In this document: one piece after another, positions 35,011 through 37,781 of the stretch | How positions within the stretch are numbered: the stretch's first letter is position 1 | Layout of the letters: each line of letters begins with the position of its first letter | Source of the DNA: an uncultured Pelagibacteraceae bacterium | Lineage (GTDB): Bacteria > Pseudomonadota > Alphaproteobacteria > Pelagibacterales > Pelagibacteraceae | Length of the DNA: 51,940 nt | Assembly (NCBI GenBank): GCA_902598595.1 | Contig: CACKCD010000003.1 | Span: 1 to 51,940 of the forward strand | Reading direction: 5' to 3' | Notes under the pieces: generated by a model | Databases searched by the model: none | What the model saw: the letters and a program-made list of their open reading frames with translations, nothing else | Told to the model about the DNA's origin: nothing | Translations under genes and position numbers: made by a program

Positions 35011-35097
35011 GGGCGAATGGTGGAACTGGTAGACGCGCCGGACTCAAAATCCGGTGGTAGCAATGCCTTGAGAGTTCGAGTCTCTCTTCGCCCACCA
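35011..35097 (+). tRNA. tRNA-Leu (anticodon CAA), CCA encoded
   Basis: The acceptor GGGCGAA (35011-35017) pairs with TTCGCCC before the A-CCA end (35094-35097). The anticodon stem CCGGA/TCCGG encloses the loop CTCAAAA, giving anticodon CAA at 35045-35047, which reads UUG. The long variable arm (GGTAGCAATGCC) and the GGTTCGAG-type T-arm (GAGTTCGAGTCTC) confirm a class II leucine tRNA. It lies between two protein genes on the same strand with no obvious promoter of its own. Confidence 0.96.
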
Positions 35098-35101
35098 AAT
35101 T

Positions 35102-36778
35102 ATGGATGTAAGTAAATTAAACAGTTTAGTTGAACTTTATTTTAAAAAAATAGAGGAAGTTAATGGTAAACAACCATTTTTAAGGTGGTTAAAACCAGAG
35201 AAACCAACTTATAATTGGGAAGATATCACTCAAAGAATTTTTAAATTAACTACAAAAATTAAATCGTTAATTAATGAGAGAGATAGATGTTTAATATTAT
35301 CTGAGAATAGACCTTATTGGCTAATGACTGACATTGCTATTATGAATGCTGGAGGTATTTCAGTTCCGATATTTACAACTTATTCTGCAAATGATTATGA
35401 GTACATTTTAAATGATTGTAAGCCTTCTTTGATATTTGTGTCAAACCAGGATCAATTTAACAAAATAAAAAAATTTATTAATAAAGATGTCAAAAAAATA
35501 ATATCATTCGAGAAAATTGATACAGACAGTTTATTAATTGAAGAAATACTTGATAAAGAAATTAATGAAAAAATCATAAATAAAAATTTAAAAAGAAATA
35601 TGCCAGCATGTATAATTTATACTTCAGGTACTTCAGGAAATCCAAAAGGAGTAGTGTTAAGTCATGGAGGTATTTTATCAAATTGCGAGGGCGCAGTTGA
35701 GTTACTAGAAACTTTAACTAAAAAAAAGGATCCGGTATTTTTAACTTGGCTACCTTTGTCGCATTCGTATGAGCACACAGTTCAGTTTATACAAATTATA
35801 GTTGGTGCAAAAGTTTTTTATGCAGAAAGTTTAGAAAAACTAATTTCTAATATGCAGGTTGCTAAACCCACAATAATGACAGCTGTTCCAAGGTTTTATC
35901 AAAACCTTTATACAAAAATAAATATGAATTTCGAAAAACAAACTGGCTTAAAAAAAAAATTAATACATAAAACCCTGGAGCTTGGAATAAAAAAACTCAA
36001 AAAAGATAAGTTAAATTTTATAGAAAAAAGCATTAATTTTTTATGTGAAAAATTAGTGCGAAAAAAAGTGCAAAAACAATTTGGAGGAAATCTTCAAACC
36101 TTTGTATCTGGTGGAGGGGCACTAGATCAAAAAATAGGTGAATTTTTAAACGCTATAGGACTGCCCACCCTTCAAGGATATGGACTGACAGAGGCTTCTC
36201 CAGTAGTAAGTTGTAATTTACCAGATATGGTAAAGGTTGAAACTGTAGGACCAGCTTTTAGAACAAATAAAGTTAAAATAGCTGAAGATGGAGAAATTTT
36301 AGTTAAAGGAGAAAATGTAATGTTGGGCTATTGGAATAAAAAAGAAGAAACAGATAAAGTCATAAAAGATGGTTGGTTGCATACTGGTGATATAGGTGAG
36401 TTAGATCAAAATAATTATTTAAAAATAACTGATAGAAAAAAAGATATTATAGTTAACCTCGGAGGCGATAATATCTCTCCAAGTAAAATAGAAAATATTT
36501 TGTGTTTGAATGAATCTATTAAACAATCTTTTGTTTATGGAGATAAAAAGAATTATCTAGTAGCATTAATTGTTGTAGAAAAAGATACAAATAAAGAAAA
36601 AATTAACAAAATTTTAGAAAATATTAATAAAAACTTAAGTTTAATTGAAAAAATAAAAAAATTTATTTTAATTTATGAAGAATTTACAATCAATAATGGA
36701 ATGTTAACACCGACTTTAAAGTTAAGAAGAAAAGATATAGTTAAAAATTATAAACAACAATTAGAAAATCTTTATTGA
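35102..36778 (+). CDS. Long-chain acyl-CoA synthetase (AMP-forming)
   Basis: This enzyme activates fatty acids to acyl-CoA through an acyl-AMP. Family motifs are IIYTSGTSGNPKGVVLSH (residues about 169-186), LPLSHSYEHTVQF, LQGYGLTEASPVVSCN, DGWLHTGDIGELD and DRKKDIIVNLGGDNISPSKIE. The 558 residues are full length for the FadD15-like group. The ATG is only four bases after the CCA end of tRNA-Leu, so there is no room for a normal ribosome site outside the tRNA. Confidence 0.92.
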   Translation: MDVSKLNSLVELYFKKIEEVNGKQPFLRWLKPEKPTYNWEDITQRIFKLTTKIKSLINERDRCLILSENRPYWLMTDIAIMNAGGISVPIFTTYSANDYEYILNDCKPSLIFVSNQDQFNKIKKFINKDVKKIISFEKIDTDSLLIEEILDKEINEKIINKNLKRNMPACIIYTSGTSGNPKGVVLSHGGILSNCEGAVELLETLTKKKDPVFLTWLPLSHSYEHTVQFIQIIVGAKVFYAESLEKLISNMQVAKPTIMTAVPRFYQNLYTKINMNFEKQTGLKKKLIHKTLELGIKKLKKDKLNFIEKSINFLCEKLVRKKVQKQFGGNLQTFVSGGGALDQKIGEFLNAIGLPTLQGYGLTEASPVVSCNLPDMVKVETVGPAFRTNKVKIAEDGEILVKGENVMLGYWNKKEETDKVIKDGWLHTGDIGELDQNNYLKITDRKKDIIVNLGGDNISPSKIENILCLNESIKQSFVYGDKKNYLVALIVVEKDTNKEKINKILENINKNLSLIEKIKKFILIYEEFTINNGMLTPTLKLRRKDIVKNYKQQLENLY

Positions 36779-36909: not shown

Positions 36910-36937
36910 TTGACATGAATACTAAATTAATTAAAGT
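36910..36937 (+). promoter_or_regulatory. Predicted sigma-70 promoter of the basic-peptide gene
   Basis: A perfect TTGACA (36910-36915) is followed after 16 bases by TAAAGT (36932-36937). A transcript would start near 36944, about 45 bases before the ATG. Chance boxes are common in such A+T-rich DNA, but an exact -35 at this position before an SD, a short ORF and a terminator is suggestive. Confidence 0.55.
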
Positions 36938-36988
36938 TTAAATTAACAAACGAATCATTAAGATTTGTTTAAAACAAGGGAGAATAAG

Positions 36989-37060
36989 ATGGCTAAACGT
37001 AGAAGAAAAAAAGCTAAAAAAGCTAAAAAAGCTAAGAGAAGAAGAAAAAGAAGAAGATAG
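36989..37060 (+). CDS. 23-residue Lys/Arg-rich peptide
   Basis: An ATG with a good Shine-Dalgarno (AAGGGAGA at 36976-36983, five bases before the ATG) opens a 23-codon ORF ending in TAG. The product begins MAKRRRKKA, continues with KKA repeats and ends KRRRKRRR: 19 of 23 residues are Lys or Arg, the rest Met and Ala. A strong terminator begins 11 bases after the stop, so the gene looks like a complete one-gene transcription unit. I recognise no family. Such a polycation would bind RNA or DNA; a ribosome-associated or nucleoid role is inference. The middle is three copies of the 9-base unit AAAAAAGCT. Confidence 0.78.
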   Translation: MAKRRRKKAKKAKKAKRRRKRRR

Positions 37061-37071
37061 TTTCGCTTTTT

Positions 37072-37111
37072 AAAACGCCCTTTTTAATTATTCTTTTAGA
37101 AAGGGCGTTTT
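37072..37111 (+). terminator. Strong intrinsic terminator, possibly bidirectional
   Basis: AAAACGCCCTTT (37072-37083) pairs with AAAGGGCGTTTT (37100-37111) in a 12-bp stem around a 16-base loop; T-rich sequence continues on the plus strand. It ends the basic-peptide transcript. It lies five bases after the carD stop on the minus strand, where only a short T-run follows, so it may also stop the carD operon. Confidence 0.88.
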
Positions 37112-37115
37112 TTTA

Positions 37116-37781
37116 TTACACGCTTTCTAAACTTACAGTCCTTCCAAGTGCTTTATCCATTTTTTTCTGAACATCCTCAGGACTAACTTTTAATACTGCT
37201 TCGAATTCTGATTTTAATCTTTCATAAGCTTTTTCAAAAAGCTGTCTTTCAGAATAAGATTGATCAGCAATAATATCTGTATTTTTATTTAAGTCTTTTA
37301 CAACTTCAGCAAGCTCATAGATTTTTCCTGAGTTGATCTTTTGATCGTATTCTTGCGCTCTTCTACTCCACATTGTTCTTTTGATTTTGGGCTTAGTTTT
37401 TAAAATAGAAATACATTTATTAATCTGATTGATAGATGATATGGGTCTAAGTTTAGATTGCTGATTAATAGGGACGGTCAGAGTTAATTTTTCTTTTTCA
37501 ATAAATATTTTGTAGAATTGTATATCTATCTGCCCAATAGTTGCTTTTTCGACAGCAGTTATTTTTCCTACTCCATGTTTCGGATAAACTACATAATCTT
37601 TCAAATTATAAATACGTTTTTCAGTTGGTTGTTTTTTAATTTTCTTTATCTCTGGTTTTTCGTCTGGACTATTATTAAATGTTTTTTTATCAGAAGCTTT
37701 TATGCTTGGGTTTATTTTAGTTATCTTTTTTTTAAGAATTTTAGTTTTTTTAGTTTTTTTGATTTTTTTCTTTTTTGGCAT
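37116..37781 (-). CDS. carD: CarD-family transcription regulator with Lys-rich N-terminal extension
   Basis: CarD binds RNA polymerase beta and stabilises open promoter complexes. The RNAP-interacting domain starts at LKDYVVYPKHGVGKITAVE (about residues 61-79) and the helical DNA-contacting domain follows, with RRAQEYDQKINSGKIYELAEV and the C-terminal block LFEKAYERLKSEFEAVLKV. At 221 residues it is longer than most CarD proteins (about 150-170) because of some 55 N-terminal residues that are mostly Lys and Thr and look disordered. It is last in helicase-TerB-fdxA-carD, a neighbourhood typical of alphaproteobacteria. Confidence 0.9.
   Translation of the reverse strand: MPKKKKIKKTKKTKILKKKITKINPSIKASDKKTFNNSPDEKPEIKKIKKQPTEKRIYNLKDYVVYPKHGVGKITAVEKATIGQIDIQFYKIFIEKEKLTLTVPINQQSKLRPISSINQINKCISILKTKPKIKRTMWSRRAQEYDQKINSGKIYELAEVVKDLNKNTDIIADQSYSERQLFEKAYERLKSEFEAVLKVSPEDVQKKMDKALGRTVSLESV

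Follow-up and report, generated by a model that had tools for sequence, protein, structure and literature searches.

The locus examined here raises the question of whether a 23-codon open reading frame (ORF) rich in lysine and arginine, lying next to carD, is a gene at all and, if it is, what its product would do. It lies in a stretch of 51,940 nucleotides from an uncultured Pelagibacteraceae bacterium (hereafter the window), whose source genome comprises 725 kb and is 66% complete. SAR11 bacteria rank among the ocean's most abundant cell groups and have shed most of their dispensable DNA.

A short gene facing carD

An earlier sequence-only reading of the window had described a self-contained gene with a promoter, a Shine-Dalgarno (SD) sequence, a 23-codon ORF closed by TAG and a terminator. 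It was right in calling the gene self-contained, and all of these elements, positions included, were confirmed (Table 1). One detail needed correction: the 19 Lys/Arg residues it had counted were one too many, the peptide consisting of 18 K/R, 4 Ala and 1 Met with no acidic residue. The terminator stem, given as 12 bp, comprised 16 pairs in our scan. Its remark that many genes in the window have no SD agreed with our count, in which 37 of the 42 ORFs of at least 150 aa lacked an SD-like triplet, a rough figure based on a three-base motif before the first ATG with frames and start codons uncurated. The RNA from 36945 to 37120 folded at -38.1 kcal/mol (z -3.5), and two hairpins, one at the 5' end and one at the terminator, were common to the minimum-energy and centroid structures, both of which contained extra, weaker pairs.

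Table 1. Features of the unit and its neighbours, in window coordinates
Feature	Position	Strand	Basis or remark
Whole unit (promoter, hairpin, SD, ORF, terminator)	36910-37115	+	Convergent to carD
Sigma-70-like promoter, TTGACA-N16-TAAAGT	TTGACA 36910-36915, TAAAGT 36932-36937	+	Promoter scan and conservation
5' hairpin, AAACGAATC-ATTAA-GATTTGTTT	36948-36970	+	At or near the predicted transcript 5' end; conserved, folded
Shine-Dalgarno GGGAGA	36978-36983	+	Sequence; GGAG core conserved
Polycationic ORF, 23 residues, ATG...TAG, MAKRRRKKAKKAKKAKRRRKRRR	36989-37060	+	Sequence, conservation, coding pattern
Intrinsic terminator, stem-loop and U run	37072-37115 (stem 37072-37111)	+	Terminator scan (16 pairs), fold
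carD/cdnL, convergent neighbour with Lys-rich N-terminal extension	37116-37781	-	Domain matches
AMP-binding (acyl-CoA synthetase-like) gene, upstream, outside the unit	35102-36778	+	Domain search

Taken alone, the promoter scan did not rise above chance, with 10 sites over 3 kb and 17.9 in shuffles, and the terminator scan found 1 site against 0.8 in shuffles of the same 3 kb. The ORF itself might have arisen by chance within a purine-rich tract, given that Lys codons are cheap in an AT-rich, A-rich genome. However, it was the only one of the 229 ATG ORFs of at least 20 aa in the window to reach 50% K+R, and none of the 11,974 ORFs in 40 first-order Markov shuffles reached 60%. Together with the conservation across the SAR11 order and the pattern of codon changes described below, the shuffle test in our view refutes the chance reading, whose probability we regard as negligible.

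Because the peptide as a query recovered no more than 8 of the 101 relatives at E<=10, the relatives were found through CarD, and the adjoining junction was then read. In what follows, g1 to g10 are genera and f1 and f2 are families; g1 is the genus of the window, f2 is the sister family, and g6, we infer, is Pelagibacter proper. An intact Lys/Arg-rich ORF was present at all 202 CarD junctions with enough flanking sequence, which covered each of the ten genera in the SAR11 order sample and two families; 13 further CarD loci were cut by contig ends. First, 50 of the 61 g1 genomes gave a CarD match, and a complete ORF of 20-25 aa lay beside 48 of them, while in the other two a contig end truncates the locus but leaves the ORF end visible. 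Second, 45 further loci drawn from the 216 CarD-positive genomes among 247 of the order all held the ORF (24 g6, 4 g8, 3 g9, 2 g5, 2 g7 and 10 g1). Third, the ORF was found at 73 of the 80 named public loci that ranked best of 256 by CarD (7 were cut); the named contigs of this set, at 84-95% CarD identity, belong to SAR11; most bear the label Pelagibacteraceae, and HIMB058 and PRT-SC02 are among them. Fourth, it was present at 36 of 40 f2 loci, the remaining 4 being cut, 3 of them with the ORF end visible; these 40 include all 32 CarD-positive f2 genomes of the first CarD survey and one from g10. Named and unnamed loci overlap as sets, 184 loci representing 151 distinct units. In these 184 loci an ORF was accepted if it began with ATG, measured 18-110 aa at a K+R of 50% or more, lay no further than 420 nt from the CarD match and had an SD-like triplet; the triplet was not demanded in the g1/f2 reading, the 45-locus set and the later f2 reading, and demanding it in the 184 loci cost none.

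The sequence-only reading had held that an ORF broken in close relatives would speak against it, and the ORF was intact in 202 of 202 loci with room. Its claim of a deliberately expressed gene under selection is well supported as far as the sequence goes, expression itself being a prediction; on conservation, its core idea is supported, and the observation is stronger than was stated. Since SAR11 genomes are streamlined and the ORF is intact at every readable CarD junction, the gene is likely to be important to these bacteria.

Additional searches addressed the limits of the distribution. An 85-aa f2 query matched 36 of the 247 order genomes, all f2, and three f2 matches flagged with an internal stop were in fact intact ORFs of 60, 79 and 40 aa (L419, L426, L427). 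A 35-aa query gave no match in 190 genomes of the class and missed its own genome too, so that this search was blind. Among 50 carD stretches from other alphaproteobacteria, 41 held no ORF of 18-150 aa with K+R above 38%, and the remaining 9 (L217 and L227 among them) held short K/R-rich frames (38-56%) with no visible kinship. Carriage of the unit by phages was rejected, a K/R-rich ORF following the leader core in none of the 112 IMG/VR stretches that matched it. The leader pattern was found in none of 24 tested genomes without a CarD match, a search that lacked a positive control and used a pattern unfit for f2, g5, g7 and g8; in CarD-less genomes gene loss and assembly gap cannot be told apart. 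Two g1 genomes, G119 and G006 (98% and 94% complete), had neither a CarD match nor the leader pattern, through loss or an assembly gap.

Coding pattern and leader

The sequence-only reading had proposed weighing third-position changes against amino acid changes, and this comparison spoke for a coding gene. In 52 nearest-neighbour pairs of equal length, which are not phylogenetically independent, we counted 60 synonymous codon changes, 32 Lys<->Arg, 7 Ala<->Lys and 9 others, with no Lys<->Glu change. The A<->G changes at codon positions 1, 2 and 3 numbered 9, 33 and 29, against 1564, 1232 and 1309 purine sites, of which position 1 thus has the most. A noncoding purine-rich RNA should show as many changes at position 1, so the deficit there fits coding, and the pattern as a whole would agree with a translated ORF.

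The leader is also conserved. The heptamer CGAATCA was found in 176 of the 177 loci with room (the remaining one has CGAATCG) and in 18 of 18 additional f2 loci, and TTGACN preceded CGAATC by 32-36 nt in all 172 loci with room, a distance which, counted from the -35 box, puts the hairpin at the start of the transcript or close to it. The GGAG core of the SD was present in 183 of 183 testable loci. The first half of the hairpin is constant and its pairing partner shifts between groups: the constant half pairs directly in the folded g1, g6, g9 and f2 leaders and just partly in those of g5, g7 and g8, where the loop-side stem is longer. Folding covered 31 of 82 unique leaders, with z from -2.2 to -7.7, and by eye the g8 stem shows a G-C versus A-U exchange on both sides (L172 vs L173). 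The constant half may alternatively be a DNA site. In g8 and g5 leaders (L172-L175, L210, L212) an upstream CTCC could, by eye, pair with the SD, a possible translational switch that has no counterpart in the leader of the window. The pattern TTGAC-N18-46-CGAATCA found the unit in 11 of 12 genomes, the exception being G113 with its CGAATCG. A CGAATCA regulon was considered and rejected, since there were only five other matches in the 12 genomes against 26 for the backwards control, and judged by these matches the promoter-leader pattern looks private to this gene.

At the 3' end, a crude fold test of the terminator was passed by 121 of 151 units; of the 30 that failed (15 g1, 14 f2, 1 g6), six were inspected and show a visible ACGCCC- or GCGCCC/GGGCGT stem. 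The terminator sequence pattern failed in all 24 g6 loci, 23 of which passed the fold test, and three inspected g6 terminators have a different stem sequence.

The conserved hairpin with its nearly invariant CGAATCA is what would be expected if the functional product were an RNA, either a small RNA or a regulator antisense to the convergent carD, with the ORF incidental, and an antisense transcript, AscarD, is described as controlling mycobacterial carD (PMC8820732). However, AscarD covers the carD coding region, whereas the transcript as predicted here would not: the predicted terminator stem does not reach the carD stop codon (37116-37118), which sits directly behind the terminator on the opposite strand. 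The codon-position pattern, the in-frame length changes and the good SD also argue against an RNA product. In a search of the whole window at gathering thresholds, the sole Rfam match was a tRNA at 35011-35094, with none at the unit. The missing Rfam match and the coding substitution pattern led us to disfavour a noncoding RNA, which we consider very unlikely.

The peptide family and the basic tail of CarD

The orthologues range fivefold in length, from 20 to 99 aa, with a mean K+R per group of 58-83%, and the f1 peptides contain no acidic residue. The pattern seen most often in g1, g9 and g6 begins M-A/P-K-R-R-K-K and continues with a Lys core with Ala or Thr and an Arg-rich end; the Arg clusters at both peptide ends are conserved, and position 2 is preferentially A/P. 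The g8 orthologues (34-58 aa) mostly carry PAKK-like repeats, and those of f2 (40-99 aa) start with MEELK or MEDLK and continue with KKAAPKKK repeats, rich in Lys, Ala and Pro. By their composition, the f2 and g8 forms appear like the tail of histone H1. The orthology of the f1 and f2 peptides is based on their place convergent to carD, their leader and, for many, a similar terminator, rather than on alignable sequence alone. Pfam and NCBIfam gave no family match, and two peptides had no sequence match in the PDB at E<=10, the low complexity blunting all of these comparisons; two sub-threshold Pfam rows (fungal PH domain) are composition noise.

Such low-complexity K/R sequences with freely varying length and, in f1, no acidic residue would suit a general counter-ion of polyanions, that is, a polyamine substitute or a condenser of polyphosphate or RNA with no fixed partner. 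However, the end Arg residues, the A/P at position 2 and the constant adjacency to carD all exceed what charge needs, as does the spacing of small residues, which falls at 3 or 4 positions in 74% of cases in g1 (shuffle mean 28%) and 83% in g6 (27%). There was no such excess over shuffles in g8 and f2, and the 47% of pooled g5/g7/g9 lay inside the shuffle range. A counter-ion without a partner is, in our estimate, improbable.

The neighbouring protein itself carries a basic tail. The CarD of the window matched CarD_TRCF_RID (2.8e-12) and CarD_C (9.4e-20), and 63 residues with 38% K/R precede its conserved core (37593-37781, minus strand). An H1-like, Lys-rich tail of 62-127 residues with 32-45% K/R, measured from the first in-frame ATG, the assumed start, to the conserved Y-P-x-H-G core, was present in all 35 distinct SAR11 loci with a placed start; one g9 locus has a 65-residue extension without an ATG, and other loci were cut. 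Among 50 non-SAR11 alphaproteobacterial CarDs, the stretch back to the first ATG measures 7-54 residues in 39, no ATG was found for 7, and 4 (L217, L227, L245, L253) carry a long basic extension of 81-132 residues with 29-33% K/R, perhaps acquired separately. An RGRP AT-hook is absent from the CarD of the window; one such motif lies in the tail of each of the two g7 loci (L211, L213), and GRP in that of one g6 locus (L290). Eight g6 carD genes (L284-L287, L289, L291, L293, L297) have a short inverted repeat, GATCC...GGATC, just before the first in-frame ATG, and L288 has a partial one. In L209 (genome G134, 96% complete) the CarD match was flagged with an in-frame TAA beside an intact peptide ORF; the alignment, which begins at query residue 30, does not contain this stop, and it would thus fall in the variable N-terminal part.

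The arrangement on the carD side of the junction is identical in f1 and f2. Upstream, 84 of 95 f1 loci had a relative of the acyl-CoA synthetase gene, and the 11 without one hold at most 354 nt beyond CarD; none of the 40 f2 stretches had it. The shared carD side and the f1-only synthetase favour linkage to carD over plain synteny, without amounting to proof.

Proposed role and likeness to known systems

We therefore asked which partner would best account for these observations. The reading we prefer, with a probability of about 0.5, is that the ORF would encode a translated, nucleic-acid-binding microprotein resembling an H1 tail, whose target would most likely be nucleoid DNA beside CarD. 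A sigma-70-type promoter would give a short monocistronic mRNA of about 170 nt, presumably protected at both ends by the stem-loop at its start and the terminator hairpin, and the good SD would drive translation. The product, whose hydrophobic content is merely Met1 and four Ala, is probably disordered; it would bind the phosphates of nucleic acids non-specifically and may form a short helix on binding, as the end Arg clusters and, in two genera, an Ala or Thr every 3-4 positions suggest. Nucleoid DNA, including the promoters where CarD acts, is the most likely target because SAR11 CarD has a tail of the same kind, so that there would be two basic tails, one in cis on CarD and the other in trans from the next gene. 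The basic disordered domain of Myxococcus CarD is described as binding DNA, raising activity and being exchangeable with other basic disordered domains (PMC4374960), and Caulobacter CdnL as localising to an rRNA promoter, with reduced rRNA transcription upon depletion (PMC5324124); from these findings we propose a common nucleic-acid surface for the peptide and the tail of CarD. A bolder extension, which we hold only tentatively and consider rather doubtful, is a split H1-like transcription module in which a tailed CarD/CdnL and a separate H1-tail microprotein package AT-rich promoter DNA and tune rRNA transcription.

Several points speak against the preferred reading. Plain synteny alone could hold the peptide gene and carD together, and the two genes converge rather than sharing a direction of transcription. 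The basic domain of CarD is also placed differently, at the C-terminus in myxobacteria and at the N-terminus in SAR11. A short Arg-rich peptide is an equally good ligand of RNA. No such gene lies alongside the four non-SAR11 CarDs with similar tails, which indicates that a basic CarD tail does not need the peptide gene, and with Lys codons cheap in an AT-rich genome the basic character of the two stretches may have unrelated causes.

A ribosome-associated peptide that binds rRNA and stabilises or hibernates ribosomes, as bTHX, Sra/bS22 and mycobacterial bL37 do, is the main rival, though a less likely explanation. The size, the charge and the end Arg residues suit rRNA, and a high-copy product would be consistent with the good SD and with conservation across the order. 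However, a family that grows by repeat expansion from 20 to 99 aa is unlike an embedded ribosomal protein, the neighbours seen are non-ribosomal genes, and the PDB gave no sequence match, a weak test for such a composition. The sequence-only reading had suggested a new ribosome- or nucleoid-associated peptide; of these two candidate roles, the H1-like longer orthologues, the fivefold length range and the CarD tail favour the nucleoid and transcription side.

If the peptide does bind DNA with CarD, the organisation of AT-rich DNA and the control of rRNA synthesis in regulator-poor, streamlined bacteria become testable. Under the split-module extension, few known proteins dedicated to chromatin would be as small as the 20-25-residue form, and rRNA transcription would be tuned in this way in very small, slow-growing cells. 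Since trypsin pieces of the peptide are too small and its composition defeats family searches, it may have escaped proteomics and annotation. Compared with the sequence-only reading, the conserved leader hairpin, the CarD tail, the kinship and the neighbourhood are new here. Among the open-licence papers listed as matches, judged by title and the start of the abstract, no report describes this gene. An intergenic survey of SAR11 strain HIMB5 by Stav et al. (2019) reported at least three sORFs of unknown function, among which the peptide gene could be, and its main text contains no word beginning with carD (PMC6429828); the main text of Meyer et al. (2009) mentions neither carD nor histone (PMC2704228).

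With respect to known systems, three likenesses can be drawn. First, the small basic ribosomal peptides bTHX, Sra/bS22 and bL37 share tiny size, strong basicity and a single short gene with the SAR11 peptide, but no sequence kinship was found in the PDB search, blunted by low complexity, the SAR11 peptide ranges fivefold in length, and its longer members have H1-like repeats. Second, bacteria possess histone H1-like, Lys-rich nucleoid proteins, including chlamydial Hc2 (PF07382), which resemble the SAR11 peptide in their low complexity, rich in Lys and Ala (and Pro), and in having no hydrophobic core. Unlike Hc2, the SAR11 peptide is 20-25 aa long in the genus of the window, is fixed beside carD and has a private leader hairpin. 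The HC2 model matched none of 11 SAR11 genomes at E<=1, a test weakened by composition filters and in which 4 of 14 control genomes matched, none above the cut-off; hmmscan of three f2 proteins and the window peptide gave no HC2 match either. H1-like and HMGA-like domains are reportedly equivalent, according to the title of a 2009 PNAS paper. Third, the CarD of M. xanthus combines a CdnL-like part with a basic, disordered, HMGA-like domain, and SAR11 CarD likewise joins an RNA polymerase-binding domain to a basic tail. The tail is C-terminal in the myxobacterial protein and N-terminal in that of SAR11, and in contrast to M. xanthus, SAR11 encodes a second basic polypeptide next door.
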